Assembly (NCBI RefSeq): GCF_038632915.1 | Contig: NZ_CP152050.1 | Coordinates: 1,705,001 to 1,769,000, forward strand | DNA: 64,000 nucleotides | DNA from: Paenisporosarcina sp. FSL H8-0542 | Lineage (GTDB): Bacteria; Bacillota; Bacilli; Bacillales_A; Planococcaceae | Direction of reading: 5' to 3' | Shown here: piece by piece, positions 21,065-64,000 of the stretch | Layout of the letters: every line of letters starts with the position of its first letter | How positions within the stretch are numbered: position 1 is the first letter of the stretch | Notes under the pieces: model-generated | The model's input: the letters and a program-made list of their open reading frames with translations, nothing else | The model's database searches: none | What the model was told of the DNA's origin: nothing | Program-made: the position numbers and the translations under genes

Positions 21065-21083
21065 AATGAATAAGCTGTTTCCG

Positions 21084-21176: not shown

Positions 21177-21182
21177 TATTCC

Positions 21183-21232: not shown

Positions 21233-21308
21233 TGATTTATCCGCCGATGGTAACAAACTGACTGATACTTGTGTTTATTCTATAATAAAGTAACATTGTG
21301 AACAATTA

Positions 21309-21360
21309 CACTTAAACTAAAGGTGTGCTTTACTTCAATAAGAAGTAAAGCATTTTTTTA
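21309..21360 (+). repeat. Dispersed repeat site (A-stem fused to T4 terminator)
   Basis: CTTAAACTAAAGGTGTGC leads into GCTTTACTTCAATAAGAAG with GTAAAGC and a T7 tract. No B-stem follows. Confidence 0.8.
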
Positions 21361-21513
21361 TATTACAAAGGGACAGGATAATGAATAGGGCATTTTGTTT
21401 TATCAATATGCCCTTAGAAATGGGCATACATTAAATGGACGAAAAAATTTCTTAGGTACCTTTTGTGATGCGAACCGGTGATATATCAATAAATAAAGAG
21501 GGAGCTTTGATTC

Positions 21514-22188: not shown

Positions 22189-22220
22189 ATTCAAGATAAA
22201 AGTTCATAACGTTAAATTAG

Positions 22221-22256
22221 TCTTCTTCAACTAACGGGGGCTTTAGTTAAAGAAGG
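22221..22256 (+). repeat. Dispersed repeat, A/B hybrid stem
   Basis: CTTCTTCAACTAA with loop CGGGGGCT and right arm TTAGTTAAAGAAG. The outer arms are of B type, the loop closer to A type, so this copy may be an A x B recombinant. Confidence 0.8.
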
Positions 22257-22337
22257 ATTATTATAAATAATACAGCATATAAATATTGTGGCATCAAATG
22301 TCAATACTAAATCAAGTGGAAATGGAGGGAATTTAAT

Positions 22338-22841
22338 ATGACACACCCAGCATTAAAAATGTACAACTACCACGTATGGGCAAATGGAGTTATAATTGAT
22401 CGTTTAAAAGAACTTCCAAAGGAAATTTATCATAAGGAAATTCAGAGTGGTTTTTCTTCGGTATCAAAGGTGTTGTCTCACATTTATCTCACAGATTATG
22501 CATGGTTTGACATTATCTCAGGTAAAAGTATGAATGATGCAATGGCGTTCACGAATCAATTAAGAGAACAGGTGGAAACGAAAAGTATTGAGGAAATGAA
22601 AAAAATATTTCTAGACTTAGCTGAACGAAACAAAGCACTTCTGAACAGTCAAGAAGATATTGAAAAGTTGATTGTGGTGGATAATCCATATGCTGGGTTG
22701 CTTGAAACTTCTATTTCTGAATCGGTACTACACGTTGTCACTCACGGATCATATCACCGTGGCAATATAGCTACTATGTTGCGGCAAATGGGGCACACCT
22801 CCGTTATGCAAGATTTCGGACTTTACCTATATTCAAAATAG
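22338..22841 (+). CDS. DinB-family protein (copy 2)
   Basis: A 167-aa four-helix DinB-superfamily protein, not closely similar to copy 1. N-terminal MYNYHVWANGVIIDRLKELP is the typical DinB opening. Metal-binding histidines are expected in KVLSHIYLTDYAWFDII and VLHVVTHGSYHRGNIATMLR (HxxxH). It is probably a metal-dependent thiol transferase or related enzyme. GGAGGG precedes the ATG. Single cassette gene between an A/B hybrid and a complete site. Confidence 0.9.
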   Translation: MTHPALKMYNYHVWANGVIIDRLKELPKEIYHKEIQSGFSSVSKVLSHIYLTDYAWFDIISGKSMNDAMAFTNQLREQVETKSIEEMKKIFLDLAERNKALLNSQEDIEKLIVVDNPYAGLLETSISESVLHVVTHGSYHRGNIATMLRQMGHTSVMQDFGLYLYSK

Positions 22842-22883
22842 ATGAGAGTAACTCAAGCACCATCCACTTTAAATGGAACAGTT

Positions 22884-22963
22884 CCTCAACTAAAGGGTGC
22901 TTTACTTCAATAAGGAGTGAAGCATTTTTCTTATTGAACTAACGGGGCAGGTTAGTTGAAGAG
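22884..22963 (+). repeat. Dispersed repeat site (A-stem fused to T4, B-stem)
   Basis: CTCAACTAAAGGGTGC, T4 terminator GCTTTACTTCAATAAGGAG with GTGAAGC (G-T wobble) plus T5, then B-stem CTTATTGAACTAAC / GGGGCAG / GTTAGTTGAAGAG. The two arms come from different subtypes, so the outer stem is mismatched. Confidence 0.9.
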
Positions 22964-23032
22964 GAAGGAGTTCTTTTATTTCATCGATCTTAGTCATATA
23001 ATTAAGGAATATTTAAAGAAAGGAGTAGAAAA

Positions 23033-23242
23033 ATGGAAAATAATTCTTTGCACATCAGAAATTACAATCGTCATAAAGAACATAATAAACGTGTAGCTGA
23101 ATTTCATAAAAACCACGCTTCTCAAATAGCCAATGGAGAAAACGGAAATAGTTGGTTAGCTAAACTAGAAAGATATGTTTATAACAAAGGAATGACTCTT
23201 TTTAAGATAGTAAAAAAACATTTAATCAACTGTTCCTTTTAG
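23033..23242 (+). CDS. Small basic hypothetical protein
   Basis: A 69-aa basic, helical protein rich in His, Lys and Asn (NYNRHKEHNKRVAEFHKNHA). The ATG follows AAAGGAGTAG. The last dozen residues overlap what looks like a terminator hairpin (around 23222-23252), so the natural stop may have been lost. No family recognised. Confidence 0.5.
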   Translation: MENNSLHIRNYNRHKEHNKRVAEFHKNHASQIANGENGNSWLAKLERYVYNKGMTLFKIVKKHLINCSF

Positions 23243-23308
23243 GTACAGTTCTTTTTTTTGAAATTGATGATTATTTTGTTACACAGTTTAGGTCAACTCT
23301 ACAATAAG

Positions 23309-23400
23309 TCTTCTTCAACTAACGGATGCTTTAGTTGAAACTCAAAGAGCTGTTTTATCGGTTCTTTTTCTTATTAAACTAACGGGGCAGGTTAATGGAA
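23309..23400 (+). repeat. Complete dispersed repeat site (A-stem, T1-like, B-stem)
   Basis: A-stem TTCAACTAA / TTAGTTGAA around CGGATGCT (perfect), a weak GAGCTGTTTTATCGGTTC terminator with T5, B-stem left arm CTTATTAAACTAAC with loop GGGGCAG and right arm GTTAATGGAATGG. The B-stem ends only 13 nt before the next start codon. Confidence 0.9.
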
Positions 23401-23413
23401 TGGGAGGAGTTGT

Positions 23414-23821
23414 ATGTTCTGGGTAAAATTCGGTTTAATTGCGATAATTGTTTTTGTCCTTATTTCAATAGTTAAGCTTCTTCTGAGGAAGCTACTCAAA
23501 ATTGAGAAAGTAAAAAAAGAGCTATTTTCCTATAATCATATAAACGATTTACATCGAAAAATTGAAAAAGGTTTGAGAATTTTTTCTGCGATTGCTCTAA
23601 TACTTCTATCTTGTGTGCTGTTGTATTATTTTGAAGATTTAATTTACCTGGTTTTAATTGCAGTAATCGTTTTTATGGTATTGGATTATTTGGTAAGAGC
23701 ATTTTTCGAGTGGAAATATACACAATATCCGAAACAATCTATTTTAACTTTAACTGAAATGTTTTTAATTTTAATAGCAATAATAATCGTTATTGAATTT
23801 AAATTACTTGGTTCTTATTAA
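23414..23821 (+). CDS. DUF4181-like membrane protein (copy 2)
   Basis: A 135-aa paralogue of the protein at 19904, with the same signature FSYNHINDLHRKIEKGLR and RAFFEWKYTQYPKQSILTL, four predicted helices and KLLLRKLLKIEKVKK after helix 1. Function unknown. GGGAGGAG precedes the ATG, which lies 13 nt from the B-stem. The TAA stop codon is part of the following A-stem (TTATTAAGCTAAC), so coding and repeat sequence overlap. Confidence 0.75.
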   Translation: MFWVKFGLIAIIVFVLISIVKLLLRKLLKIEKVKKELFSYNHINDLHRKIEKGLRIFSAIALILLSCVLLYYFEDLIYLVLIAVIVFMVLDYLVRAFFEWKYTQYPKQSILTLTEMFLILIAIIIVIEFKLLGSY

Positions 23822-23911
23822 GCTAACGAGGTGCTTTAGCTGAAGATTATTTAAGCTTCTTAGACAGCTCTTTTTCCCTATTCAACTAACGGGGCAGAAT
23901 ACTTGAATAAG
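23815..23911 (+). repeat. Complete dispersed repeat site with compensated A-stem
   Basis: A-stem AGCTAA / TTAGCT: relative to the common AACTAA / TTAGTT, both partners changed. T1 hairpin AGCTTCTTAGACAGCTC plus T5, then B-stem ATTCAACTAAC / GGGGCAG with degraded right arm AATACTTGAATAAG. Confidence 0.92.
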
Positions 23912-23963
23912 AAAAATGAAAAATATTGTTAAAATGAAAGTTCAAACCAATAGGGGGGTAATT

Positions 23964-24305
23964 ATGATTGATGATAAAAAAATGAACCAATTTACATTAG
24001 TTGATGTTATTGAAAGGAAAATACATTTCACAAATACAAATACTATATTCGATAAAACAGAGTTTAAAGATATTAATGAAGGTGAATTGCTGGCTTATTA
24101 TGAAATGTTGGCGGATGTTAAAGAAATGAAGGAAAATGAATTTGTAAGTAAGTACCTAAATATAATAAATAAACTTACGGTACAGTTTGAAAACGAAGAA
24201 CTTACGGATAGAAGAGAGATAGAAAAAATGTCTGGATATAATAATGCCATTGTCTCTATCTTAAAGTGTATAAACCCGATTTATGAGTATGATTTAGAAG
24301 ATTAG
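23964..24305 (+). CDS. Hypothetical cassette protein
   Basis: A 113-aa acidic, helical, soluble protein starting MIDDKKMNQFTLVDVIERK. ATG at 23964 chosen because AGGGGGGT lies 4 nt upstream; a longer frame from 23916 would translate this site. The central segment (ADVKEMKENEFVSKYLNIIN) is predicted helical. No known family. Confidence 0.65.
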   Translation: MIDDKKMNQFTLVDVIERKIHFTNTNTIFDKTEFKDINEGELLAYYEMLADVKEMKENEFVSKYLNIINKLTVQFENEELTDRREIEKMSGYNNAIVSILKCINPIYEYDLED

Positions 24306-24324
24306 TCCATCAAAATTTAATTTG

Positions 24325-24356
24325 TCTTATTGAACTAACGGGTGCTTTAGTTGAAT
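24325..24356 (+). repeat. Dispersed repeat, A-stem only
   Basis: CTTATTGAACTAA / CGGGTGCT / TTAGTTGAATAA. Terminator remains are minimal (CCAGCTGACTC) and there is no B-stem before the next gene. Confidence 0.85.
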
Positions 24357-24394
24357 AACCAGCTGACTCATTTTCAGAATAGGGGGTTTAATGT

Positions 24395-24826
24395 TTGACT
24401 AGTAAATCACGCAAAATCTTAGGTGTTATATTAATTGTTTTGGCATTGATTCCGATTAGTAATGCGGTTAAATATTTCACATCTCCTCCCATATTAGTCG
24501 GTTATTCTGAAAATAAAGATTGGAAGGTTGAATATGTTTCAACAGGACATTATTGGGAGGCTCAGTTGTTCCCCTTGAAACAGGGTTTAGGACAACCTGA
24601 AAATTTAGTTTTTATCGAAGGCAATCAAAGGAATGAATATCCAGGTAAAGGTTCGAAAAATGAAGAACCCAACGATGCAAGATTATATTACTACTGCAAT
24701 ACATTAGGAAGCAGTCCGAAAGATAATGTATCTTATAAATTTGAATTCATCTCGAACAATGGACAGAAACAAATGATAAATTTAAAAAGACAAAAAGAAG
24801 AATTTTCAATTTGGAAAATATTTTAG
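24395..24826 (+). CDS. Membrane-anchored hypothetical protein
   Basis: A 143-aa protein from a TTG start 8 nt after AGGGGG; the nearer ATG at 24391 is out of frame and ends at once. N-terminal hydrophobic segment (ILGVILIVLALIPISNAV) acting as signal or anchor, then an extracytoplasmic beta-rich domain (VGYSENKDWKVEYVSTGHYW … SYKFEFISNNGQ). No family recognised; the layout is common among small secreted Bacillaceae proteins. Confidence 0.65.
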   Translation: MTSKSRKILGVILIVLALIPISNAVKYFTSPPILVGYSENKDWKVEYVSTGHYWEAQLFPLKQGLGQPENLVFIEGNQRNEYPGKGSKNEEPNDARLYYYCNTLGSSPKDNVSYKFEFISNNGQKQMINLKRQKEEFSIWKIF

Positions 24827-24863
24827 CCTTTAATAGAGGGCATACTGAATCGATATGGTGTTC

Positions 24864-24898
24864 CTTCTTCAACTAACGGAGCAGGTTAGTTGAAGAAG
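24864..24898 (+). repeat. Dispersed repeat, perfect B-stem (CAAC/GTTG subtype)
   Basis: Arms CTTCTTCAACTAAC and GTTAGTTGAAGAAG form a perfect 14-bp stem around GGAGCAG. Compared with the perfect stem at 14008, several pairs differ on both sides (ATTG/CAAT versus CTTC/GAAG). Confidence 0.95.
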
Positions 24899-24980
24899 TA
24901 AGATAAAAATTACATCAAAATTCAAGTGAGCATAAGATTCGAATAATTTTCTTTTAGAAATGTGCTTGAGAGTAAATATT

Positions 24981-25030
24981 GTAAAGGTAAAATGCACATA
25001 AATTCCTATCTTAAGGATTATGTGCATTGT
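24981..25030 (-). terminator. Intrinsic terminator of the minus-strand DJ-1 gene
   Basis: On the minus strand AATGCACATAATCCTTA pairs with GGAATTTATGTGCATT, followed by TTA-rich sequence. It lies about 15 nt past the DJ-1 stop. Confidence 0.75.
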
Positions 25031-25043
25031 GAATATTTGATAT

Positions 25044-25649
25044 TTATGAATTAGTTTTTTTTGCCTCATAATAACCTAATTTATGGAAAGTGTAAAGTTG
25101 ATTAATATGCTCCTTAGGATATGCTTCTAATAATTCAAGAATTTCTTTTGCAAATTCTAATGAAGCTGTTCCATTTGCGGTCACAATTTTTCCGTCAGAA
25201 ACTGCTTGCTCTAGTACATAATTCATTTCATTTCTGTAGTGATCTTTTGCATAAGTTTTCAAATCATTAAGATCATTGCTTGTATGCTTTATTTCATTTA
25301 ACCATCCATTGGCTCCCATAAAAACTGTTGCATCACATATTGCCCCTACTGGAATATCCATAGTAAGTGCCTTTTCCATTATTGGAATGACGTTATTGTT
25401 TAGTGGCTTACGCCAAGAATTTCCCCCAATTAATATTAAACCATAAAAGATTTCAGGTATACTTTTTAAGGTGTAATCTGGAAGAACATTTAATCCGCCG
25501 ATTGACTTTATAACACCCTCACTTACACTAACTATCTTAGTGATGTACTTATCTGTATTATTTAAAAAAGCTGCTACATAAGACATTTCCCAATCAGCGA
25601 ATTCCTCTAACACTACAATTAAAATCTCTTTTTTCTCAGTTTGGTTCAT
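25044..25649 (-). CDS. DJ-1/PfpI family protein (paralogue)
   Basis: A 201-aa DJ-1/PfpI protein with the nucleophile elbow VGAICDATVF (C105) and the LILIGGNSW strand at about 71-79. It aligns along its length with the protein at 18006. AGGGAGG precedes the ATG on the minus strand. It is divergent from a regulator whose N-terminus resembles the WYL/YafY helix-turn-helix, so the ~100-nt gap is probably a shared control region. It is one of few minus-strand genes in the array. Confidence 0.88.
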   Translation of the reverse strand: MNQTEKKEILIVVLEEFADWEMSYVAAFLNNTDKYITKIVSVSEGVIKSIGGLNVLPDYTLKSIPEIFYGLILIGGNSWRKPLNNNVIPIMEKALTMDIPVGAICDATVFMGANGWLNEIKHTSNDLNDLKTYAKDHYRNEMNYVLEQAVSDGKIVTANGTASLEFAKEILELLEAYPKEHINQLYTFHKLGYYEAKKTNS

Positions 25650-25749
25650 TCTTAATCCCTCCTAGTTAAATTATAAAAATTCTATTAATTTGATACTGTC
25701 TTCAGTATATATTGTAATAGTGACAAATGATGACACAATTAGCAAATGA

Positions 25750-26501
25750 GTGAAAATTTTGAGTAAGGCAATTAGATTAAATGAATTAAGGTTGTATATT
25801 AATCGAGTCAACAAGTTTAAGGTAGATGATTTAGCAAAAGAATTTAATGTTTCAAGAAGAACGATTCTTAGGGATTTAGAAGAACTAAGTATTTTAGGGG
25901 TTCCACTAATTTCAGAGGTAGGAGCTAATGGAGGATATCAAGTTTTGGAAGAAAAAAATCTACTTGCTGTCTCTTTTACAAATGAAACAATAAAAACAAC
26001 ATCAGAATTATTAAATATAAAAAATTATCAATTTAGTTCAGTAAGTATTAACCCAACTACATCGAATCCAATTATTGAGATAAGAATTGAAGGAACAAAA
26101 GAGTACTTTAATGCAGTGAAGAATGAAATCAGAATACTTGTAGCTGATGCAGTTTCTTCAAAAACAAATATAAATTTTGATGTTAAAGTAAATAGAAGAA
26201 GTGAAAATGAAATAAGAGATGAAAAATGGCATCCGATTTTCACGAGCGTAAGGGAAGAAAAACCGCTAAAAATTTTGAGGAATATAAAGGATTTGCCTAT
26301 TCCTTCCACCCAGAACCTTTACAGATTATCATCAAAACAGATTTGGAAAAATCTAAGTGGTGGTGGGATTCCGATGAAAAAGTAAAAGAAATAGAAAAAT
26401 ATGTACAAGAGATAATTAAACTTAAAAGTGAAGAATTTTTAATCGAAGAAATACCTCATGAAATCATAATAAGAGGTAAAGAGAATAAGAAATTGAATTA
26501 A
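25750..26501 (+). pseudogene. Chimera: YafY-type HTH fused to frameshifted DUF4030 segment
   Basis: The first ~65 codons encode a winged helix like YafY regulators (VDDLAKEFNVSRRTILRDLE, GVPLISEVGANGGYQVLEE). The WYL domain is missing. Instead the frame continues into DUF4030-like sequence (IIEIRIEGTKEYFNAVKNEI). Near 26235-26330 the frame breaks: the original frame degenerates, while another frame continues the DUF4030 pattern (YKGFAYSFHPEPLQIIIKTD … PHEIIIRGKENK) to 26501. Start is GTG 25750 or TTG 25759. It looks like a recombination product that later frameshifted. The HTH alone might still bind the DJ-1 promoter. Confidence 0.7.
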
Positions 26502-26538
26502 AAAGAACACTTTTGATTTGTTGAGTTAAAAGCGTTTT

Positions 26539-26572
26539 TCTTATTCAACTAACGGGGCAGGTTTGTTGAAGA
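26539..26572 (+). repeat. Dispersed repeat, B-stem
   Basis: CTTATTCAACTAAC / GGGGCAG / GTTTGTTGAAGAAG: one mismatch inside and mixed outer arms. Preceded by a degraded terminator (AAAGCGTTTTTC). Confidence 0.88.
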
Positions 26573-33929: not shown

Positions 33930-34169
33930 ATGAAAAATATTATACAAATTTTGTTGGGAATCACTGTTATTGGTTTGGCTACATACTCACTAATATCTCC
34001 TGAATATGACTATATATTACTTCCAATAATGAACTTGGTAATGGCTTTACTACTTGCAGTGATAGGTTTATCTGTAATGAAAGATAATCATAAAAATGTA
34101 GGTATTTTATTGTTGATTACGTCTGGACTTTTATTTGTTGTTGCAAGTGCTAAACTTATTTTAGAATAA
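33930..34169 (+). CDS. YczI/DUF3953-like small membrane protein
   Basis: A 79-aa protein with three hydrophobic stretches (IIQILLGITVIGLATYSL; IMNLVMALLLAVIGLSVM; VGILLLITSGLLFVVASA). Length and spacing resemble the DUF3953 (YczI-type) family of Bacillus, function unknown. ATG at 33930, 5 nt after TTAGGAGGAATG. A T3-type repeat site overlaps the region just after its stop. Confidence 0.6.
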   Translation: MKNIIQILLGITVIGLATYSLISPEYDYILLPIMNLVMALLLAVIGLSVMKDNHKNVGILLLITSGLLFVVASAKLILE

Positions 34170-34170
34170 C

Positions 34171-34222
34171 GGAGCCATAGTCAAGTAGAGCAACGTCATT
34201 TGAGACGTTGCTTTTTTTATAT
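34171..34222 (+). repeat. Dispersed repeat fragment with T3 terminator
   Basis: CGGAGCCATAGTCAAGTAGA then GCAACGTC-ATTT-GAGACGTTGC and T7. About 65 nt, including sequence beyond the terminator, match 53566-53635. Confidence 0.75.
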
Positions 34223-34464
34223 TTAAAAAGTAATTCCGATAAAACTTCTTCAGCAGCCTTCGAGTTAGTAGAAAACATAAACTCAAAGATCGCTTTCTCG
34301 ATAGCAAAAGTTCGATTTACCTTTACCTCCCGGTTAAATAATTGGGTATTTGCTCCTTTTTTATTTGAAAAATAATCCAATTTTTCTGTCTCCAATGATT
34401 TTTTCTAAGTACGTAATATGTAATTTGATTCAATTATTTCATAAATCTTTTAATTCAAACCCAA

Positions 34465-52696: not shown

Positions 52697-53129
52697 GTGT
52701 GTGTGAAAAATTCAGTGATAAATCGTTGCCATGAAGAAAAAAGACATCAACTGGTCCGAACGGTCGATTCATATCCCGAATGGAAAACGGCCAGTATCGT
52801 CCTCTTCACGAAGGAATGTGAGGAACACTTGAAAGTCTATCTTGAACCTCAGTGGGACGACCTGCCATATCTGTTTCTGAATACATCCAATAGCGAGCAG
52901 ATTTGCAGGCGGACCATTCAAAAGCGGTTTACGCGTTAAACCAATAAGCTTGGCTTTAAGCTGACCCCACATACGCTCAGACATACGTTCGCAGCACACC
53001 TCGCCATCAAAGGGATGCCGCTCGTGTGTATCCAGACCCTGTTGGGCCATCACGATTTGAAACAGAAGCAATACTACGTAAGGCTCTACGACCATGCCCG
53101 GAAAGCCATCTATGACGAATGGATGTAAT
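52697..53129 (+). pseudogene. Tyrosine recombinase, truncated and stop-interrupted
   Basis: C-terminal half of a phage-integrase/Xer-type recombinase. Frame 1 reads ASIVLFTKECEEHLKVYLEP and DDLPYLFLN…RRTIQKRF, then an in-frame TAA (52937), then LTPHTLRHTFAAHLAIKGMP, LLGHHDLKQKQYYVRLYDHA to a final stop. Catalytic HxLRH, GHH and Tyr (YYVRLYDH) are visible, but the N-terminal half including the first Arg box is missing. GC content is higher than the surroundings, suggesting import. Inactive as it stands. Confidence 0.85.
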
Positions 53130-53543: not shown

Positions 53544-53602
53544 TCTTCTTAAACTAACGGATGCTTTAGTCAAGTAGAGCAACGTCTTTTAAGACGTTGC
53601 TA
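53543..53602 (+). repeat. Dispersed repeat site (A-stem + T3 terminator)
   Basis: CTTAAACTAACGGATGCTTT and AGTCAAGTAGA, then T3 terminator GCAACGTC-TTTTA-GACGTTGC. Matches 34171-34222 including about 30 nt downstream. Confidence 0.85.
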
Positions 53603-53610
53603 CATTTACA

Positions 53611-53799
53611 TATAAAAGTACTTCTGATAAACAACCGGTTATAGCAGGTTCAAACATTGCAGTGGTTACAGGATTGTTTAAAAATACTTCCTACTATTTA
53701 AGAGTAAAAGTAGTAGGCGGCTTGAACGATGGTATATCTAACGTTGTTACGGTAATAACAGCAGATCCATTACTACCTGCTAAAAAGAACAACAATTAA
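53611..53799 (+). pseudogene. Fibronectin type III remnant
   Basis: Open frame PVIAGSNIAVVTGLFKNTSY, LRVKVVGGLNDGISNVVTV to a stop. It aligns with the FN3 domain of the subtilase 5 kb downstream (NSAVVTGLNENTTYKFRVTV and GGLNAGSSNVATATT). No start codon; the leftover 3' end of a related surface-protein gene. Confidence 0.8.
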
Positions 53800-53893: not shown

Positions 53894-54329
53894 AAAAAAA
53901 TGTCCTGTCCCTTATTATGTCCCTCTTGGTATAGCACTTTTGTTTTATGCAGGTATAGAACCAAAGAACAGCAAAAGATACATCCTATGTTTAATTTTCA
54001 GAAAAATATAAATGTGGGATGATAAGGGTTAATTGGTTTATATTTCTGAATATTTAATGAATAGATGTTGAAAACCCCAGTTGATACCAGATTAGTTGAA
54101 AAATTTTGAAAACCTGATGTTGAAAGACAGATCAGTGTATTAAATGTGAAGTTAAGTCATTGGCACGATACCTTTACATTTTTACAAATATATTAATTTA
54201 CTTTTAGTTAGATAGGGGAGAGGAATGAGGAAAAGGAGAAACAAAAAAATTATTATTAGAATCATTGTTTCGTTCGTAATTCATTGCACTAAATGTGTAA
54301 TAAAGAGACAGGGACTTGGAGGAAAGAAA

Positions 54330-57300
54330 ATGGGGAAAAAAGCAAACAATAAAAGTAAGGTCTTAAAAAGCTTATCTGTATTTGCTCTATCATCTAGAAA
54401 ACGTAAGTTAAAGTACATTTTAGCAACTACGACGATGAGTGCTTTATTATTGTCATCTGTCATTCCGTACAACGTGCTAGCGGCATCATCAACACCTATC
54501 GATCCTTTTCATCAGGATTCGAGCGTTCCACAGTTGACGAAAGAACAGATTGCGGCATTGAATCAGTACAGCATAGGTGGTCCAGAAATTTCGTCTAAGA
54601 TCAACACTTCAAGCGCGGAATCTGTTCGCGTCATTGTTGAATTCAAGCAAGCACCGGCGAAAGTAGCTGTCATGCAGGCACAATTAGCTGGAGACAAGAC
54701 AACATTAGAAGAAGAAACACAAGACGTAAGCGATTCGCACAAACAGTTTCGTGCATTTGTGGATGGATTGTCTCAGCACAAAGCTGGCCCAAGTGTTAAT
54801 GCAGTTACTAAGCAAACTTTAGCTAGTGAAGAAGATGCTGGAGATTCATCTGCCATCCAAATTACAAGAGAATATAAGAACGCGTTAAATGGGGTTGCCA
54901 TGACGCTTCCAGGAAACATGGTCGAGAGACTATTCGAATCTGGTCTTGTTAGCCATGTATTCGCAGATGAAATAGTCAAACTTGACCCGATAGAAGTGGA
55001 ACAAGTGAAGCAGCAAAGCGTTGAAGGGTTAAAAGAAAATTCGATCCCACTTCCGGGAATTGATGCGCTTCATAACGCAGGCATTAAAGGAAACGGCATT
55101 AAAGTCGGCGTGTTAGATACAGGAATCGATTACAATCATCCAGATTTAACGGATGTGTATAAAGGGTACCGAAAACAAGAAGGTGAGAACCCTAGTACAA
55201 TTGACCCGAAATCAGTTAAGGGGTGGGATTTCGTCGATAACGATGCAGATCCGATGGAAACAACATATGATGACTGGGTGAATGCAGGTAAGCCAGTAAG
55301 ACCAGGCCGTGAATACCCGACGTCCCACGGTACGCACGTATCTGGAACAATCGCAGCACAATCGAAAGCCAATGTCGAATATCCGGCACAAGGGGTTGCC
55401 CCTGGCGTTGATTTATATGTCTACCGCGTACTAGGTCCTTATGGTTCTGGTGCTTCAAGCGGGATTGTTGCAGCCATTGACAAGTCCGTTAGTGACGGCA
55501 TGAAAGTCATTAACCTGTCACTTGGTGCAGCGAGTAACGAACCATTATCAGCAGAAGCAATCGCGGTTAACAATGCGACAATCGCTGGTGTTACATGCGT
55601 CATTGCAGCAGGAAACTCAGGTAATTATGCATATACACTTGGCACACCTGGAGCAGCAGCGCTTCCGATTACGGTTGGTGCAAGTGACTTCTCGATGTCG
55701 ATTCCGACCGCAACGGCAACAGTTGGAAACGAAACGTTCACCGACTTTAAATTGCTTGGAAAAGGGTTCAATGACCACGTGGAAACACTTGCGAATAAAA
55801 CGTATCCAGTTGTGTTTGTTGGCTCAGGTGGCGAGGATGATTTCAAAGATGTTGATTTGCAGGGGAAAATAGCATTGATAGAGCGCGGAACGTATGCGCT
55901 TAGTGAAAAAATTGTGAATGCACAAAAAGCAGGCGCAGTGGCGGCAATCATGTATAACAATATCGACGGCGACATCGATAACTATTTAGCAAGTGGTGTT
56001 GGTTTTATCCCAACATTCCGGATGTCAAAAGCAGACGGCGAGCGTTTAAAAGCAGCTGCTGAAACGGATTCAATTACGTTTACCAATATCGGATCGATTG
56101 TAACAGAAGGAAACAATTTGGCCGATTTTAGTTCAAGAGGACCCGTTACGTCAACCTATGACATTAAACCGGAGGTTGTGGCTCCTGGGGTATCGGTTTA
56201 CTCGACGTATCCAGAATTTATCCACAGTCCAGAAACAGGAATTGATTACTCACAAGCATATGCTCGTATTTCGGGTACATCAATGGCTTCTCCGCACGTA
56301 GCAGCGATTGCTGCACTGATTTTACAAGCACACCCAGATTACAAACCGGCTGATGTCAAAGCAGCGTTGATGAATAGTGCGGACAAACTAAATGGCGACT
56401 ATTCCGTGTACGAAGTAGGCGCAGGTGAAGTAGATGTAGCAGAAGCTGTTCATAACGAGATGGCATTCAAGGTACAAGACACCACGATAATAGGTGATGG
56501 AAAAGGTGGCTTTATAGAGAACGCGTATGAAAAAGGCTCATTGACGTTTGGTACGGTTTACAAAAAAGACGATAGCACAAATACAACAAACCGTACGATT
56601 GTCTTTGAAAACCGCGGTACCCAAGGGAAAACATTCGACGTTTCGGCAGAATATAGTAAACCGATTGATACTGTAAGTGCACATGTAAGTGACGCAGTAG
56701 CGAACAATGTAACCGTAACGACTTCTTCAGCATCTGTGACGGTCGCTGCAGGGGAGGCAACAAATGTAACGGCAACGGTTAACATACCTGCGAGCGCAGA
56801 GATGGGACAATATGAAGGGTATGTGAACATTGTCAACCATGACAATCCAAATGAACACTATCGCATTCCGTTCGCGACTCGCTTCGTTGAAAAAGGAATC
56901 GGAGACGTTGAGATCTTGAATCCAGCAATCTCAACCCTGCCTTGGAGGCATCCATATACGGCGCCTCAAACTCGCTATATCTATTTCAGATTAAACAGCC
57001 CGATGAAAGATTTATGGCCGATTATCTATGATAAAGACGGCAAAGCACTTGGAGCAAGTTCGGTAAAACCATTTAGTTTAAACGGTGCGCCTCTTGATAC
57101 GGACCTAAGAGCAGTATTCTCGCCATCGTATTATCCGTTTATCGGCGATCCGAAAGATGAAAAAACAGACATCAAGCAGCCAATGGCGAAACTGCCAGAA
57201 GGTGAATATACAATCAAAGTTCGTACAACAGATGCAGATGCTGTGAGATACGAGGTCGTTAGTAAAAAGTTTATCATCGATAACACGTTACCGAAGTTGA

Positions 57301-59597
57301 CGTTAAAAGACCATAAACCTGGCGTCTATGAGCTAAGTGATTCGGACTTTACAAATGAAAAAGGGCCAGATGGAAATATGGCTAATGCGCATTGGGTTCA
57401 TGCCAACCTGTGGGATGAAGGAACGGCAAAATTAGCATCTTCAGACTACACACAGTCTGAAAATAAGCTATATTATTACTTTAATCAAAAAGCTGTAGTA
57501 AACGGCGATTTCCCACTTGATGCAAATGGGGATACAAAATTCGGTATTGAACCATCTGATATTGAGAATGGCCCAGCAACAATCAAACTATTCCCTATTG
57601 ATATGGCGAAAAATGGGGAAATTTTAAATGAATCCAATTTCTATGCATTCGTCAAAAAAGGTACACCTTATGTGATACCAACTTACGATAAGGAAAAAGT
57701 CTATCAAGATGAAACGTTGACGATGACATTAAATCTACATAACGTAAAGGATTTGATGGCTGGAAACTACAATGTTGAATTCTATGATTGGCTCTTCCAG
57801 TTCCAAAGCGTAAAAGTTAACCCAGCATTCCAGCAGTATGCGGATGCAAACGGATTCACAGTAAGTGTCGATGAACCCACTGTGAAGGAACACCCTTTAT
57901 ATCCAGGTATTAAAGACGAGGTGAATGCGGGCGCACATATCAGCGGTGGTGAAGATTTTAAAGGAATCAGTGGTGATACGCCATTCCTTGATGTGACATT
58001 TAAACTGATAAATGACCGTATGTACGACGTCTACTATGACACGATGAACGTCGAAGCTAATACAGTGCCATTCACGTACACACAATACGGTGAGCAAGAA
58101 CCGGTTGTCATCCAATCATTCAACCATATTAACCAATATAAAATCATACCAAAGAGCAATTATGTGGTATCCTATACCCATCTTGAAGCGTTCTATTCAA
58201 ACTTTACGATGGATTATTCCATCATAGGAGCAAAAGCATACGCGCAATTGAAAGACGGGACAAAAGTGCAAGGAACGATTGACAAAAAAGGCTTTGTAGA
58301 TATCGAGAATCTTCCTTTAACGAAAGATCCAATCGATATTGTCGTTGAAGCCCCTGGACATCTGAAGAGCATTCAGAAAGTGACGGTTGGTAAGAAAACA
58401 CCGTGGGGCGAAGACGTCGGTGAGTATATACAAAAACAAGGTGCTCAACCAGTTGCAGCAGCCGGTGATGTAAATGGAGACGGTGTCATTGACGTGTTAG
58501 ACGTGAAACAAGTTGCGAAGAAATTCGGAGTTCAAAAACAGACTGATTTCAACATCGAAGACTTGAACCACGATGGTATTGTCAATGCAACGGATATGAA
58601 CTTTCTGGTTGGGAATCTTTACAAATCAAACCCAGATGCAACAATCACACCAAAAGAAATGGTCGACGGAAAAGTTAGCACAGATTTCTTCAACGAGTTA
58701 AGTATTAAATCTCTTGTGAACACATTGAAAGCAACAACAAAAACGAATCATACAGCAACACTGAATTGGCTAGCAGCTGTTGATGCGACGAATGTAAAAA
58801 TTGAAAAATCAACTGACGGCTTATCATGGACGGCAGCTACAACAGCAAATTCTGTAGCAGTTGATTCAAACTCAGCAGTTGTGACTGGATTAAACGAAAA
58901 CACGACTTACAAATTCCGCGTAACGGTAACAGGCGGATTAAACGCTGGTTCTTCAAATGTGGCAACTGCAACAACGGATGTCACGTTACCTCCAAACCCA
59001 ACACCAACTCCGGAGCCAACGCCTGAGCCAATCACATTTGCTGATATCTCAGAACATTGGGCAAAAGAGGATATTGAATTATTAGCAACAAAAGGCATTA
59101 TTAATGGACTGAAAAATGGATTATTTGCACCCGAAAAAGATATTACACGTGCAGAATTCACAGCCCTACTTGCGCGTGCTCTCGACTTGCCAAAAGCGAC
59201 GGAGCAAGAAAACTTTACAGATGTCCGACCAACGGATTGGTATGTTTCGGAACTACAATCAGCTGTTGAAGCAGGATTAATCAATGGTTACGAAGACAAT
59301 ACATTTAAACCAAGTATGTACATCACACGTGAACAAATGGCTGCATTGATGGGTCGTGCATACAAAATTATAGAGAAACAAGCACCAACAGTGGATGTGG
59401 ATCAAGTATTGGCAAAATATATCGATCGTAAATCTATCAGTGCATGGTCCAGAGCAGACGTAGCATTAGCTATACAACTTGGCGTAATTCAAGGAAACAA
59501 GGCAAATGAATTGCAACCAAAAGAATCTGCAACAAGGGCAGAAACAGCAGTCATGCTAAAAAGATTACTGGTAGAAATTAAACTGCTGGAAGAATAG
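54330..59597 (+). CDS. Cell-surface S8 subtilase with PA, cohesin/dockerin-like, FN3 and SLH domains
   Basis: A 1755-aa Vpr-type subtilase numbered from ATG 54330 (TTGGAGG 10 nt upstream); an in-frame ATG at 54225 also has a GGGGAGAGGA site and would add 35 residues. Order: signal peptide ending near NVLA, I9-like propeptide, S8 domain with D263 (VLDTGID), H333 (SHGTHVSG) and S651 (GTSMASPH), with a PA domain inserted between H and S (GKIALIERGTYALSEKIVNA), Ig-like region, cohesin-like segment (about 1110-1273), a carboxypeptidase-regulatory-like fold, dockerin-like EF-hands (DVNGDGVIDVLD and DLNHDGIVNATD, about 1377-1435), FN3 (about 1464-1553), Pro-rich linker and three SLH domains (about 1569-1750) that bind secondary cell-wall polymer. 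Confidence 0.93.
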   Translation: MGKKANNKSKVLKSLSVFALSSRKRKLKYILATTTMSALLLSSVIPYNVLAASSTPIDPFHQDSSVPQLTKEQIAALNQYSIGGPEISSKINTSSAESVRVIVEFKQAPAKVAVMQAQLAGDKTTLEEETQDVSDSHKQFRAFVDGLSQHKAGPSVNAVTKQTLASEEDAGDSSAIQITREYKNALNGVAMTLPGNMVERLFESGLVSHVFADEIVKLDPIEVEQVKQQSVEGLKENSIPLPGIDALHNAGIKGNGIKVGVLDTGIDYNHPDLTDVYKGYRKQEGENPSTIDPKSVKGWDFVDNDADPMETTYDDWVNAGKPVRPGREYPTSHGTHVSGTIAAQSKANVEYPAQGVAPGVDLYVYRVLGPYGSGASSGIVAAIDKSVSDGMKVINLSLGAASNEPLSAEAIAVNNATIAGVTCVIAAGNSGNYAYTLGTPGAAALPITVGASDFSMSIPTATATVGNETFTDFKLLGKGFNDHVETLANKTYPVVFVGSGGEDDFKDVDLQGKIALIERGTYALSEKIVNAQKAGAVAAIMYNNIDGDIDNYLASGVGFIPTFRMSKADGERLKAAAETDSITFTNIGSIVTEGNNLADFSSRGPVTSTYDIKPEVVAPGVSVYSTYPEFIHSPETGIDYSQAYARISGTSMASPHVAAIAALILQAHPDYKPADVKAALMNSADKLNGDYSVYEVGAGEVDVAEAVHNEMAFKVQDTTIIGDGKGGFIENAYEKGSLTFGTVYKKDDSTNTTNRTIVFENRGTQGKTFDVSAEYSKPIDTVSAHVSDAVANNVTVTTSSASVTVAAGEATNVTATVNIPASAEMGQYEGYVNIVNHDNPNEHYRIPFATRFVEKGIGDVEILNPAISTLPWRHPYTAPQTRYIYFRLNSPMKDLWPIIYDKDGKALGASSVKPFSLNGAPLDTDLRAVFSPSYYPFIGDPKDEKTDIKQPMAKLPEGEYTIKVRTTDADAVRYEVVSKKFIIDNTLPKLTLKDHKPGVYELSDSDFTNEKGPDGNMANAHWVHANLWDEGTAKLASSDYTQSENKLYYYFNQKAVVNGDFPLDANGDTKFGIEPSDIENGPATIKLFPIDMAKNGEILNESNFYAFVKKGTPYVIPTYDKEKVYQDETLTMTLNLHNVKDLMAGNYNVEFYDWLFQFQSVKVNPAFQQYADANGFTVSVDEPTVKEHPLYPGIKDEVNAGAHISGGEDFKGISGDTPFLDVTFKLINDRMYDVYYDTMNVEANTVPFTYTQYGEQEPVVIQSFNHINQYKIIPKSNYVVSYTHLEAFYSNFTMDYSIIGAKAYAQLKDGTKVQGTIDKKGFVDIENLPLTKDPIDIVVEAPGHLKSIQKVTVGKKTPWGEDVGEYIQKQGAQPVAAAGDVNGDGVIDVLDVKQVAKKFGVQKQTDFNIEDLNHDGIVNATDMNFLVGNLYKSNPDATITPKEMVDGKVSTDFFNELSIKSLVNTLKATTKTNHTATLNWLAAVDATNVKIEKSTDGLSWTAATTANSVAVDSNSAVVTGLNENTTYKFRVTVTGGLNAGSSNVATATTDVTLPPNPTPTPEPTPEPITFADISEHWAKEDIELLATKGIINGLKNGLFAPEKDITRAEFTALLARALDLPKATEQENFTDVRPTDWYVSELQSAVEAGLINGYEDNTFKPSMYITREQMAALMGRAYKIIEKQAPTVDVDQVLAKYIDRKSISAWSRADVALAIQLGVIQGNKANELQPKESATRAETAVMLKRLLVEIKLLEE

Positions 59598-59942: not shown

Positions 59943-60014
59943 TGCGTTGATCCGAGCAGGATTAACGCTTTTTTGTTGAACTTATCGAACTAACGGGGCA
60001 GGTTAGTTCAAGAA
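59943..60014 (+). repeat. Dispersed repeat site (T2 terminator + B-stem)
   Basis: T2 terminator GCGTTGATCC-GAGCA-GGATTAACGC plus T6, identical to that at 12236, then B-stem TTATCGAACTAAC / GGGGCAG / GTTAGTTCAAGAAG. The preceding ~250 nt contain no convincing gene. Confidence 0.93.
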
Positions 60015-60090
60015 GAATTTTTCATTTATTGGAACTATTTGGGTTAAATAACGTAATAATTATAAAGGATTAAATTAAGGAGGATAACCC

Positions 60091-60339
60091 TTGAACAAAT
60101 TCGGTGTTATCTCATTGCTAATGTTTATTAGTAGTATTATTGCTTTTTATATTTTGAGAGGACCTAATGCTGATATATATGTTGGTATAAAAATTTTTAG
60201 TGTTCTATCAATTATTGGGATTGTGTTTGCATTTATTTCAGGAAACAAGTTGTGGTTTTTTATCGGGGGGATTCTAAATATTTGTATGCTGGTGTTCACT
60301 TTTTTTCTATTACTCGCAATGGGTATAGGTGAGCCTTAA
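60091..60339 (+). CDS. Small membrane protein, three helices
   Basis: An 82-aa protein from a TTG start after TAAGGAGGA, with three hydrophobic segments (VISLLMFISSIIAFYIL; IKIFSVLSIIGIVFAFISG; WFFIGGILNICMLVFTFF). No family recognised; typical size for this array. Lone gene between two repeat sites. Confidence 0.65.
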   Translation: MNKFGVISLLMFISSIIAFYILRGPNADIYVGIKIFSVLSIIGIVFAFISGNKLWFFIGGILNICMLVFTFFLLLAMGIGEP

Positions 60340-60401
60340 ACTATCGGAAAAAAATTAAAAGATGAAATGGTTGATATATTATTTACTTATACAGCTAATT
60401 T

Positions 60402-60435
60402 CTTATTGAACTAACGGGGCAGTTTAGGTGAAGAT
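60402..60435 (+). repeat. Dispersed repeat, B-stem
   Basis: CTTATTGAACTAAC / GGGGCAG / TTTAGGTGAAGAT; imperfect right arm. No A-stem or terminator. Confidence 0.85.
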
Positions 60436-60535
60436 GCAATGTTATAATTATTATCAAATCGATTATTTATGTAGACAAATCCAAACCTTTTTCGGATACC
60501 TTGAATTCGATGTAAATGAAAGCGAGAATGAGTAA

Positions 60536-61216
60536 ATGAACATATTGGACTATCTTAAGGGAAGGTTTCCAACTGTCGAATTAATCCCAAGCATTTATTA
60601 TCAATGGGACATTGGCATCCACTTTTCACTTGGTGGGGAAATCTATCAATTCAAAGATAATGATGATCTCAATCTTAATCGATTTCGACTTGTATATAAG
60701 CAAACCTCAACAATTTTCAATGAGTTGTTTGAGCAAAATGACGAGCTGTTCTTCGTGACGAATGTTTATAATCACAAAACAAAAGAGAAACATACTAGAA
60801 AACTGAAGGTATACCAGCCGTTTCTGAAGTGTAAAAATAAATTGAATCGAATTCAGGTGAAAACGTACCCTTATCCGTTCGAGTCGGACGAAGCAGAAGA
60901 ATTCGAGTTGCAACAATTTTCCTTGTTGTGTAAGCGAGGAGACATACGTGTGAATGAATTACTTAAGGCAGCGAGTAATGAAGATTTTCCATTGAAACCA
61001 AAGTTCGGAAGGTACTCCATCGATTATCCCGATGTTTTCTTAGTGAACATCACAAAAGACATTATTTTCTTTGTCTACGACGACCGAGGGTGCGAAGTTA
61101 TAGCCCGTGAAGCAGATCGAATACGTCCACTTTATGAGAAATACTACGATTGGGTAGAAGAAGTTGATAGAAAAAGGATTGAACAAGGGTTAGGAGGAAG
61201 AGGATTGAAAAAATGA
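60536..61216 (+). CDS. DUF3885 family protein
   Basis: A 226-aa soluble protein. The C-terminal part (IIFFVYDDRGCEVIAREADR, then PLYEKYYDWVEEVDR) is the DUF3885 signature. The N-terminal half (YYQWDIGIHFSLGGEIYQFK) is the substrate-unknown domain found with it. DUF3885 proteins are frequent in Bacilli in variable regions, function unknown, immunity-like by context. GAAAGCGAGAATGAG is a modest ribosome site. Confidence 0.8.
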   Translation: MNILDYLKGRFPTVELIPSIYYQWDIGIHFSLGGEIYQFKDNDDLNLNRFRLVYKQTSTIFNELFEQNDELFFVTNVYNHKTKEKHTRKLKVYQPFLKCKNKLNRIQVKTYPYPFESDEAEEFELQQFSLLCKRGDIRVNELLKAASNEDFPLKPKFGRYSIDYPDVFLVNITKDIIFFVYDDRGCEVIAREADRIRPLYEKYYDWVEEVDRKRIEQGLGGRGLKK

Positions 61217-61244
61217 AAACAATCAAAGTATTCATCTATTTTCT

Positions 61245-61335
61245 CTTGTTCAACTAACGGTGCTTTAGTTGAAGATCAAGTGCTCCTTAGACAATACTTT
61301 TCTTATCAAACTAACGGGGCTGGTTTGTTGAATAA
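61245..61335 (+). repeat. Complete dispersed repeat site (A-stem, T1-like, B-stem)
   Basis: A-stem TTCAACTAA / CGGTGCT / TTAGTTGAA (one-base shorter loop), weak terminator (AAGTGCTCCTTAGACAATAC plus T-rich tail), B-stem CTTATCAAACTAAC / GGGGCTG / GTTTGTTGAATAA. Confidence 0.9.
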
Positions 61336-61386
61336 TCAATTAGTAATATAGGTTTTGATTTTTTGAGGAGTTTGGAGAGGAATAGA

Positions 61387-61857
61387 TTGAAAAAGTTTCG
61401 TGGAAAAAGGAGTTATTTTCGTAATTTATGGTGGACGGTAGCAGTAGAGCATAATGATTTGGACTTTGGAAACGAGGGATGGTTTGATTTATGGCATACC
61501 CATCTAGACTTTTTCGGGGTTGGAAATAATAGTTTAAAGATAAGAAGAGAGCATGTAAAAGCACATTTAGCTATATATGAAAACTTATTAGAAAGGCTCG
61601 ACACACTTGATAAACCTTATCAATCGTGGATTGAATTAGATGATGAAGATGCTGGTAAAGATGCAGTTTATATTCATACTCCTAATCCTAATGAAAATAA
61701 TTTCCCTCTTAAAATAGAAAATTTAAACTGGGATTGCATTATCCCGAAATATTTCAAGGATTTAATAGACCTGAAGGAATTTAATGTGGGTCACTATAAG
61801 TGGGAATGCAATAGCAGCTATTTAATCCAGTCTAAAAATAAGGGGATTAAATTGTAG
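61387..61857 (+). CDS. Hypothetical cassette protein
   Basis: A 156-aa soluble protein. TTG at 61387 preferred (GAGAGG upstream) over ATG 61363, which lies before that site. N-terminal basic stretch KKFRGKRSYFRN, then DLDFGNEGWFDLWHTHLDFF, an aromatic- and His-rich segment of a family I have seen as uncharacterised Bacillaceae proteins, perhaps immunity-like. No membrane segment. Single gene between complete repeat sites. Confidence 0.72.
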   Translation: MKKFRGKRSYFRNLWWTVAVEHNDLDFGNEGWFDLWHTHLDFFGVGNNSLKIRREHVKAHLAIYENLLERLDTLDKPYQSWIELDDEDAGKDAVYIHTPNPNENNFPLKIENLNWDCIIPKYFKDLIDLKEFNVGHYKWECNSSYLIQSKNKGIKL

Positions 61858-61862
61858 GACTT

Positions 61863-61943
61863 AAAGAACTAACTGGTGCTTTACTTCAATAAGGGGTAAA
61901 GCCTTTTTCTTATTCAACTAACGGGGCAGTTTAGTTTAACAAG
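61863..61943 (+). repeat. Dispersed repeat site (A-stem fused to T4, B-stem)
   Basis: AAAGAACTAACTGGTGC, T4 terminator GCTTTACTTCAATAAGGGG with GTAAAGC plus T5, B-stem CTTATTCAACTAAC / GGGGCAG / TTTAGTTTAACAAG. From the T4 stem onward it closely matches the site at 19470. Confidence 0.92.
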
Positions 61944-61991
61944 AATGCTAAAATGAATTAATTGTAAAGCGGTTAAATTGGGGAGTGAAAC

Positions 61992-62219
61992 ATGAATATA
62001 ATCCTTTGGCTTGTAAATGCTGTTATGTTATTTGGTGTTTGGTTGTTTGCTTCTGTCTTTCTGTCGACAGGGGATGAATGGTGGTCCTTATACACTTTTA
62101 ATATGGAGGAAATATCTCCTTTCAATCTAGAAATATCTTGGCTAAATGTCTTTATATTTGGATTCATTTCTTTGGTAATTTCTTTCTTCCTTGTAAAGAT
62201 AACTTCAGTAAAAAAATAA
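61992..62219 (+). CDS. Small membrane protein, two helices
   Basis: A 75-aa protein with helices at about 4-26 (ILWLVNAVMLFGVWLFASVF) and 52-70 (LNVFIFGFISLVISFFLV) and a short acidic loop between them. GGGGAGTG precedes the ATG. No family recognised. Confidence 0.65.
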   Translation: MNIILWLVNAVMLFGVWLFASVFLSTGDEWWSLYTFNMEEISPFNLEISWLNVFIFGFISLVISFFLVKITSVKK

Positions 62220-62228
62220 CAACTTAGT

Positions 62229-62324
62229 TCTTCTTCAACTAACGGGTGCTTTAGTTAAAAATCATCGGGCTGTTTAAACAGCCCTTTTTCTTATTGAACT
62301 AACGGGGCAGGTTAGTTCAATAAG
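62229..62324 (+). repeat. Complete, nearly canonical dispersed repeat site
   Basis: A-stem TTCAACTAA / CGGGTGCT / TTAGTTAAA, T1 terminator GGGCTGTTTAAACAGCCC plus T5 (perfect), B-stem CTTATTGAACTAAC / GGGGCAG / GTTAGTTCAATAAG (perfect 14 bp). Confidence 0.96.
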
Positions 62325-62334
62325 AAAAAGAGTT

Positions 62335-62895
62335 ATGGACAGAATAAGGGGTAGAAAATTAAATAAAAGGAAGTGGGATTGCATGGTTAATATCGACGAT
62401 GAAACCAACTTTGTAAATAATCAAATAGACTTTTGGGATTGTGAGTGTACTGAAAACCCATTATTTATGTACAACGTGGACGGTGAGTTTAGAGAAACGT
62501 TAACTGCATTTTGGAGGAACTATAATAGCTTTCCACTAAAAGTAGTTCATAATTTTGTACGAGAAATAGATGATTTAGATTCGGATGATAAAGTATATAA
62601 ATTAAGAATTGATACAGTAAATACAATAGATGAACTGGTTAAAATGTTAGATGAAATAGGATGGAAATTAACTGAAGAAAACTTCTTTATAACTAATTCA
62701 TCCAAAGAAATTGTTTTTAAAACAACAGAGATAGATATATTAAAGGGAAAAGTATTTGCACAGAAACCGATTTTTGAATTAGATACAAGGGAGACCTTAA
62801 CAGAAGTCATTTTACATGGGTATTCCTTTTTGATAGGTACAAATGATACTAAGTTATCTACTAAGGAAATGGTTAAAGATATTTCCCTTCGTTAA
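62335..62895 (+). CDS. Hypothetical cassette protein
   Basis: A 186-aa soluble acidic protein (INDET­-rich; e.g. NNQIDFWDCECTENPLFMYN, EMVKDISLR end). The start is uncertain: ATG 62335 lies 10 nt after the B-stem, while ATG 62383 has a better ribosome site (AAGGAAGTGGG) and would give 170 aa. No signal peptide or family recognised. Confidence 0.68.
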   Translation: MDRIRGRKLNKRKWDCMVNIDDETNFVNNQIDFWDCECTENPLFMYNVDGEFRETLTAFWRNYNSFPLKVVHNFVREIDDLDSDDKVYKLRIDTVNTIDELVKMLDEIGWKLTEENFFITNSSKEIVFKTTEIDILKGKVFAQKPIFELDTRETLTEVILHGYSFLIGTNDTKLSTKEMVKDISLR

Positions 62896-62909
62896 AGTAG
62901 TCTTTAGGT

Positions 62910-62988
62910 AATTCAACTAATGAAGATCATCGGGTTGCTATGCAGCCCTTTTTCTTATTGAACTAACGGGGCAGAATAGTTCAACAAG
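62910..62988 (+). repeat. Dispersed repeat site (shortened A-stem, T1, B-stem)
   Basis: A-stem reduced to ATTCAACTAATGAAGATC (loop and right arm lost), T1 terminator GGGTTGCTATGCAGCCC plus T5, B-stem CTTATTGAACTAAC / GGGGCAG with right arm AATAGTTCAACAAG. Confidence 0.9.
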
Positions 62989-63035
62989 ATTTTTAGTTTA
63001 AATGGTAAGATATGTTTATAAAAGGGGGGAGTTAA

Positions 63036-63329
63036 ATGAGTGATTTTTTCTTAATCCTTATGGGCTTTTTTATTGTTGTTGCAAATATTATTGGATTTAT
63101 ATCTTACAAAAAAAAGAAAAATCTATACTTTGCGGCTTTGACAATATTATTATTAGCAGTTTTATTTGGGACAATCGGTGGTGTATTAGCACTTTTTGTT
63201 ATTCGTGATGCTTTTGCAATATTCTATGGCATGCAGCTAGGATACTATTTAATAATAAATAGCGTCATCGTTTTTTTAATTGCAATTTTAGCAACTGTAA
63301 TAAACAAATTTAACAACAGAAAAATGTAA
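63036..63329 (+). CDS. Membrane protein, three helices
   Basis: A 97-aa protein with helices at about 4-22, 32-55 and 70-90, separated by a basic loop KKKKNLYFAALT. GGGGGGAG precedes the ATG. No family recognised; similar in build to the other small membrane proteins of the array. Confidence 0.65.
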   Translation: MSDFFLILMGFFIVVANIIGFISYKKKKNLYFAALTILLLAVLFGTIGGVLALFVIRDAFAIFYGMQLGYYLIINSVIVFLIAILATVINKFNNRKM

Positions 63330-63340
63330 TTCATGATTAT

Positions 63341-63425
63341 ATTCTACTAACGAGTGCTTTAGTTAAAGATCCTCGTGCCACTTAGCCAGCTCTATTTCTT
63401 ATTGAACTAACAAAGCAGTTTAGTA
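63341..63425 (+). repeat. Dispersed repeat site (A-stem, weak T1, B-stem)
   Basis: A-stem TTCTACTAA / CGAGTGCT / TTAGTTAAA, terminator GTGCCACTTAGCCAGCTC with degraded pairing, B-stem CTTATTGAACTAAC / AAAGCAG / TTTAGTAGCTTGAGG. Confidence 0.85.
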
Positions 63426-63501
63426 GCTTGAGGAAAATCTTGATGCTAAGAAATATCTTATAAAGGATACATTAATAGCAATCGAATAGGAGTAACCAAC
63501 T

Positions 63502-63780
63502 TTGAATTATGTTAGATTTTGTATTTATCAATTCATCTTATTTTCCTCAATTTTTGTTATCAGCTTTTACCAAGATCAATACTTAGGTAAACCATTTACT
63601 TCTGTTGATTTAATAGCAATATGTATAAGTTTATTTATCGCAATAATCGGTTACCGATTAGTAAATAAGATATATAAACGATTCGAGAATATTAGGTTGC
63701 AAAATAAGATATTAATTTCAATACCAACTGTAATATTATCAATCCTGTTTATTGGCTTACTTGAGCAATTACTCGTTTAG
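63502..63780 (+). CDS. Membrane protein, three helices
   Basis: A 92-aa protein from a TTG start after GGAGTAACC, with segments FILFSSIFVISFYQDQY, VDLIAICISLFIAIIGYRLV and ILISIPTVILSILFIGLLEQ. No family recognised. Confidence 0.6.
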   Translation: MNYVRFCIYQFILFSSIFVISFYQDQYLGKPFTSVDLIAICISLFIAIIGYRLVNKIYKRFENIRLQNKILISIPTVILSILFIGLLEQLLV

Positions 63781-63785
63781 TTTTC

Positions 63786-63820
63786 TTACTCAACTAACGG
63801 GGCAGGTTAGTTCAATAAGA
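63786..63820 (+). repeat. Dispersed repeat, B-stem (start of duplicated segment)
   Basis: Left arm CTTACTCAACTAAC, loop GGGGCAG, right arm GTTAGTTCAATAAG. The left arm is of mixed type while everything from AACTAAC (63792) onward equals 15585 onward, so the copy joins at the core. Confidence 0.93.
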
Positions 63821-63895
63821 ATTATTTACAAACTAGTTGAGTTAGGACAAATTTTATGTACCACAGTTTCAACAACGCCAAAGGGATGTGTATTA

Positions 63896-64000
63896 ATGAA
63901 AGAGTATTATCACTCTAAAAAGAAGAAAATTAGGGGATGGAAGCGTCACAAGAGGAAAATAGAAAAATGGAGACAAAATGTAATCGACTTAGAAATTGAT
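63896..64000 (+). CDS. Duplicate of the 15689 cassette gene (runs off the window)
   Basis: The first 35 codons (MKEYYHSKKKKIRGWKRHKR…) match the gene at 15689 with one codon changed (Leu to His at residue 6). The window ends inside it. Over the shared 209 nt, including non-coding sequence back to the repeat core, I see only three substitutions, so the copy is recent. Confidence 0.9.
   Translation, partial: MKEYYHSKKKKIRGWKRHKRKIEKWRQNVIDLEID

Follow-up and report, generated by a model that had tools for sequence, protein, structure and literature searches.

The window, by which we mean the whole stretch of 64,000 nucleotides analysed (G000:C1:1705001-1769000), belongs to the 3.63 Mb, one-contig genome of a Paenisporosarcina of the Planococcaceae (here G000). 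It carries cassettes bounded by short core sites of two recurring types, B (AACTAAC GGGGCAG GTTAGTT) and A (AACTAAC GGGTGC TTTAGTT), in which inner arms of 6-7 bp, AACTAAC/GTTAGTT, enclose an asymmetric spacer, GGGGCAG in B and GGGTGC in A, and the outer arms are usually CTTATTS-like on the left and SAATAAG-like on the right. The features that matter here are these.

6498-8260, + strand: IS110-family insertion inside a B core, as are 7/7 of the copies in the genome
9060-26567, + strand: cassette array 1, with A/B cores from 9060 to 26547
15526-15572, + strand: A core and intrinsic-terminator-like stem before cassette copy 1, which joins the B core at 15585 in an A-T-B composite
15585-15605, + strand: B core bounding copy 1 on the left, consisting of arms and GGGGCAG spacer
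15585-16422, + strand: cassette copy 1, from B core to A-core end, 838 bp with a single ORF
15689-16327, + strand: cassette ORF of 212 aa, without Pfam family
16399-16418, + strand: A core at the right end of copy 1, spacer GGGTGC
16429-16480, + strand: downstream of copy 1, terminator-like stem and the next B core, differing from what follows copy 2
34161-34272, + strand: second remnant of a recombinase-module 3' end (76%)
53548-53630, + strand: remnant of a recombinase-module 3' end (A core and terminator), 88% identical to the module that is intact in G061
59988-64000, + strand: cassette array 2, extending beyond the window to about the equivalent of 82840
63792-63812, + strand: B core bounding copy 2 on the left, whose left arm, CTTACTC, does not complement its right arm, CAATAAG
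63792-64000, + strand: cassette copy 2, which the window truncates and which goes on to G000:C1:1769629

Two very large secreted subtilases, one of them with SLH and PA domains, lie near the arrays (1915-6219 and 54225-59597) and are not part of them.

A cassette present twice

The first-pass annotation had drawn attention to the match of 63792-64000 with 15585-15793, three substitutions in 209 nt, with identity setting in at AACTAAC inside the B-stem between unlike left flanks (CTTATTG versus CTTACTC), and all of this stands. When the comparison is carried past 64000 on the genome sequence the copy reaches the A core and then diverges; homology neither runs well beyond that core nor begins upstream of the B stem. 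The unit starts at the B core (AACTAACGGGGCAGGTTAGTT) and ends in the A core (AACTAACGGGTGCTTTAGTT followed by GAAG), the last shared letters being TTTAGTT GAAG at window 16422 in one copy and the right end lying at G000:C1:1769629 (window-equivalent 64629) in the other. Window 15577-16422 and its counterpart agree at 98.9% over 846 bp, which cannot be chance. Since the copy stops just past the A core and diverges at once, within the terminator, the comparison confirms a full cassette with one 212-aa ORF and not a segmental duplication.

Two 98.9% copies on one contig are what plain segmental duplication, or an artefact of assembly, could also leave behind, but both ends of the copy lie inside cores with unrelated flanks outside, several further cassettes do the same, and the pattern recurs in independently assembled relatives; that reading is refuted by the extent of the copy. 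The left cassette boundary that had been proposed at the repeat core is borne out genome-wide, many other cassette copies breaking at the same cores, and so is the proposed copying between arrays, with core-bounded copies within the genome, between strains and between species. Only the word ‘recent’ needs softening, for 98.9% is about the divergence of two strains of the species, shared blocks of G000 and G061 being 98.6-99.8% identical. The 212-aa ORF is present in its own genome in two copies only; it is absent from G061 (the same species), G003 and G006, and homologues at 54-61% occur in four genomes of other genera. G061 does have the A core of window 16399 together with the sequence downstream, and to the left of that core it has other sequence.

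Core sites, arrays and the place of exchange

The genome has about 290-300 cores, set in arrays of one-gene cassettes. In the regions of G000 examined, 288 were counted at no more than 4 mismatches, 132 of them on the + strand below 1.9 Mb and 151 on the - strand above, so that 283/288 are co-oriented with the direction of replication as presumed from coordinates and 5 run against it. Between cores the longest ORF points along the array in 142/159 segments (median gap 645 bp), and 130 cassette ORFs match 90 different Pfam families, among them GNATs, DinB, glyoxalase, colicin-immunity-like and DUF proteins. A B core trails about half of the A cores, mostly at 28-42 nt, with a terminator-like stem between. 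Terminators in cassettes exceed those in shuffled sequence (20 vs 8.8); matches to promoter consensus do not (75 vs 84.8). An Rfam search of the cores gave no match. Several cassettes end TGTGAAG..N..ACTTA directly before AACTAACGGG, where a TAA stop would overlap the core (e.g. G000 1194566, 1601031 and 1711484; G61 593021 and 597985; L222:1596), possibly a second type of cassette end.

Two ideas about what such arrays might be for were considered and set aside: arrays of immunity genes to polymorphic toxins, the large proteins nearby being subtilases and the cassette ORFs falling into 90 mostly different Pfam families, and anti-phage islands, PADLOC matches being only scattered and weak.

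Where does exchange take place? The break-point test drew 106 homologous segments from the arrays of four related genomes, leaving out IS copies, and against a null of randomly shifted ends (2.3 ± 1.5, maximum 7 in 500 trials) 85/212 homology ends fell at a core in both copies. These break points cluster within the cores of about 20 bp and not along the longer shared terminators. Whole genes are replaced: between one B core and one A core that both strains share, G061 (108130-108896) and G000 (1197992-1198641) carry different genes. There are further swaps at cores between these strains, and other blocks begin or end at cores. The right end of one and the same gene may run into an A or a B core past a common AACTAACGG, 9/41 right-end clusters being mixed, and at the left end the core type is kept in 35/38 clusters. 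Because right ends are mixed in core type and left ends mostly fixed, the exchange point would be placed near the left side of the spacer, with one cluster (1598480/2578524), whose core type changes at the left end, clearly disagreeing with a single fixed crossover point. At the G061 junction 97593 a core is joined to non-core sequence.

The arms of a core tell a related story. Within a core, the complementarity of the two arms does not exceed that of same-column shuffled arms (z -1.7 to 2.1), so core half-sites appear to reassort, and selection on a folded single-stranded site finds no support in the arms. An attC-like long hairpin of A-left with B-right arms was also entertained and rejected, the minimum free energy fold of the A-T-B composite being three separate hairpins, not one attC-like hairpin, and the arms being without covariation. 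The unit boundaries, the exchange at cores and the reassortment of arms can thus be read from sequence directly.

That the core hairpins fold strongly (z -8.5), are numerous and are intergenic invites comparison with REP/BIME-like repeats spread by a Y1 transposase, with gene copies carried along. However, the RAYT-type Y1 transposase that defines REP/BIME has no match (Y1_Tnp, PF01797) in G000, G003, G012 or G030, of which G003 and G012 are core-rich; the two arms of a core are not copied together, and the boundaries cut through the hairpins. This reading is largely refuted and we regard it as most improbable.

An IS110-family element has also found the cores. Its 7 copies in G000, identical at about 99.7-100%, lie at window 6498-8260 and at G000 1034232, 1601091, 2136657, 2159782, 2467786 and 3474961, and 7/7 sit inside a B core with AACTAACGGGGCAG before the IS and GGTTAGTT after it. 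The 3' non-coding part of the element has CGGGGCAG at window 7961, a candidate target loop of a bridge/seekRNA. IS1111/IS110 elements with programmable site choice are known, including ones that target integron attC (PMC11187229); an array core is targeted here as there, but it is a B core and not attC.

A recombinase embedded in the arrays of relatives

PF00589 matches in core-rich relatives include one subfamily located inside arrays, a Xer-type tyrosine recombinase of about 280 aa that runs opposite to the cassettes. With P0002 as query and a hand-assigned list at ≥75% identity, the recombinase is present in 39/250 genomes of the family. A cores accompany it in 38/39; another 35 family genomes carry A cores but no close recombinase, and 176 have neither (Fisher p about 2e-23, a statistic that ignores phylogeny). 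The catalytic R-K-H-R-H-Y (R140, K164, H230, R233, H256, Y265) is invariant. The best sequence relatives are XerA/XerD, and the scores are XerA/XerD-like while falling below the XerC and XerD cut-offs; the integron integrase model TIGR02249 gives 93-97 bits against a cut-off of 265, and a clade member aligns to XerD almost without gaps and with no IntI-type insertion.

Cores flanking the recombinase loci are nearly all on the opposite strand (0-1 on the same, up to 31 on the opposite). In most loci the recombinase start has a core 69-75 bp upstream, and in most an A core follows the stop at about 41-48 bp; at some (e.g. L245, L284, L286) no core was recognised in the customary upstream position. 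Aligned upstream regions share a conserved block that ends abruptly at the core, in TTTTACTAACG.GGCAG.TTAGTT, and become variable on the cassette side beyond it, so that this core would look like an attI-like insertion point. In G061 the whole recombinase module occurs twice, core to core, at 99.4% over 1262 bp. Comparison of loci at the sequence level thus demonstrates a recombinase embedded in the arrays and opposite to them, with a conserved, seemingly attI-like site of its own.

Several other families of the class have more distant relatives (48-78%), and some of these lie among related cores. In a deeper clade (48-63% identity; L305, L307, L308, L313) related cores, CTAACGGGCAGGTTAGTT and CTAACGGGAAACGTTAG, are on the recombinase strand; these same-strand cores are partly closely spaced pairs. 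Around homologues at 61-65% in other Planococcaceae genera (L278, L279, L281, L282) there are no A/B cores, and comparable repeats are absent in the three of these that were checked, so the association with arrays is not general for that branch.

In G000 no intact recombinase of the array type was found. Besides the two 3' ends in the window there are remnants at 1782215-1782505, an N-terminal part with attI-like region at 96.6% to the G061 module and in the same array as cassette copy 2, and at 2145148-2145597. As the recombinase survives in G000 only as remnants, its arrays may now be immobile or dependent on a recombinase from elsewhere. Other tyrosine recombinases occur in G000 too: a fragment with an internal stop and about 30% identity to P0002 lies at window 52799-53125, just upstream of a module remnant, and three in tandem (RIT/Tn554-like) lie at G000:C1:2454841-2457347 beside the 2460-2480 kb array, on the opposite strand.

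We put at roughly three in four the probability that this is an integron-like system, in which the array recombinase, which is not IntI, mediates cassette exchange at cores that are not attC. The Xer-type recombinase would act within the core, exchanging DNA close to the spacer's left side; cassettes would be excised and then reinserted at other cores or, alternatively, at the attI-like core about 70 bp upstream of the divergent recombinase gene, with the terminator segment between A and B cores separating neighbouring cassettes. Catalysis by this recombinase, a circular intermediate and the strand chemistry are what we infer.

The main rival dispenses with a dedicated enzyme: RecA-type or annealing recombination, together with gene conversion, acting on cores and terminators as short repeats, with donor DNA from other arrays or uptake and the recombinase as just another cassette. 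G000, with its many varied arrays and mere recombinase remnants, fits such an account, as do the 35 genomes that have A cores and lack a close recombinase, and a double crossover in the repeats on either side would produce just such a B-to-A unit, leaving the two outer terminators as they were. Against it, breaks cluster in the cores and not along the longer terminators that are shared, the same genes are joined to different core types, all but one of the recombinase-bearing genomes have cores, and a fixed orientation with a conserved attI-like site of its own would be needless for an idle passenger. As a general explanation we therefore hold the rival to be unlikely, if worth keeping in mind. 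For the duplicated cassette itself RecA-type exchange remains a real alternative, because the lineage has dead recombinase genes and the unit is B-to-A: it differs from the simple product of same-core (B-to-B) excision and takes two exchanges to make, or a single one that accepts unlike spacers.

A probable counterpart of the integron

With sedentary chromosomal integrons the integron-like system favoured here shares a recombinase gene opposite the array with an adjacent recombination site, and many one-gene cassettes in one orientation with GNATs, glyoxalases and DUFs among them; with CALINs it shares arrays lacking an integrase. Of the features by which integrons are recognised, the same-orientation array of one-gene cassettes is present, and a divergent recombinase with a neighbouring attI-like site is found in most loci, the same-strand cores of the deeper clade being the exception. 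However, integrons are defined by an IntI-type integrase with a specific insertion in its catalytic domain (PMC8138268), whereas the array recombinase is Xer-like without that insertion. The cores are off the attC consensus, RYYYAAC occurring in 17-26% of them and GTTRRRY in 12-22%; they are of two types, there are terminators between cassettes, and the recombinase module has cores at its own ends and is duplicated, all unlike an integron. The system works like an integron and is not filed as one, because the IntI and attC tests both come out negative. Xer/dif and pdif modules offer the other obvious comparison, with a Xer-type recombinase, short inverted-arm sites with a spacer and site-bounded modules, but here there is a dedicated recombinase inside the array, below the XerC/XerD cut-offs, and nearly all sites have one orientation, the comparison covering the recombinase and the layout of the sites.

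Firmicutes are considered almost free of integrons: the IntegronFinder 2.0 survey found one complete integron there, in Limnochorda pilosa, and a few CALINs (PMC9024848). A literature search, with preprints and most subscription journals outside its scope, gave no description of this core/recombinase system, which is weak evidence of novelty. The broader proposal, to which we give somewhat less credence than to the integron-like mechanism and which we still think probable, is of a Gram-positive counterpart of the integron across Bacilli that evolved independently of IntI/attC and has a Xer-derived integrase, an attI-like platform, palindromic cores of two types and chromosomal arrays with hundreds of cassettes.

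If this is true, the problem that integrons solve would have been solved a second time and independently, and it would become testable which integron features are essential; the system could also be usable as a recombination tool. For the organisms themselves it would mean a large and hitherto unrecorded gene-capture system in environmental Bacilli, with more than 100 cassettes in some genomes, that would account for much of the strain-specific gene content in these genera.
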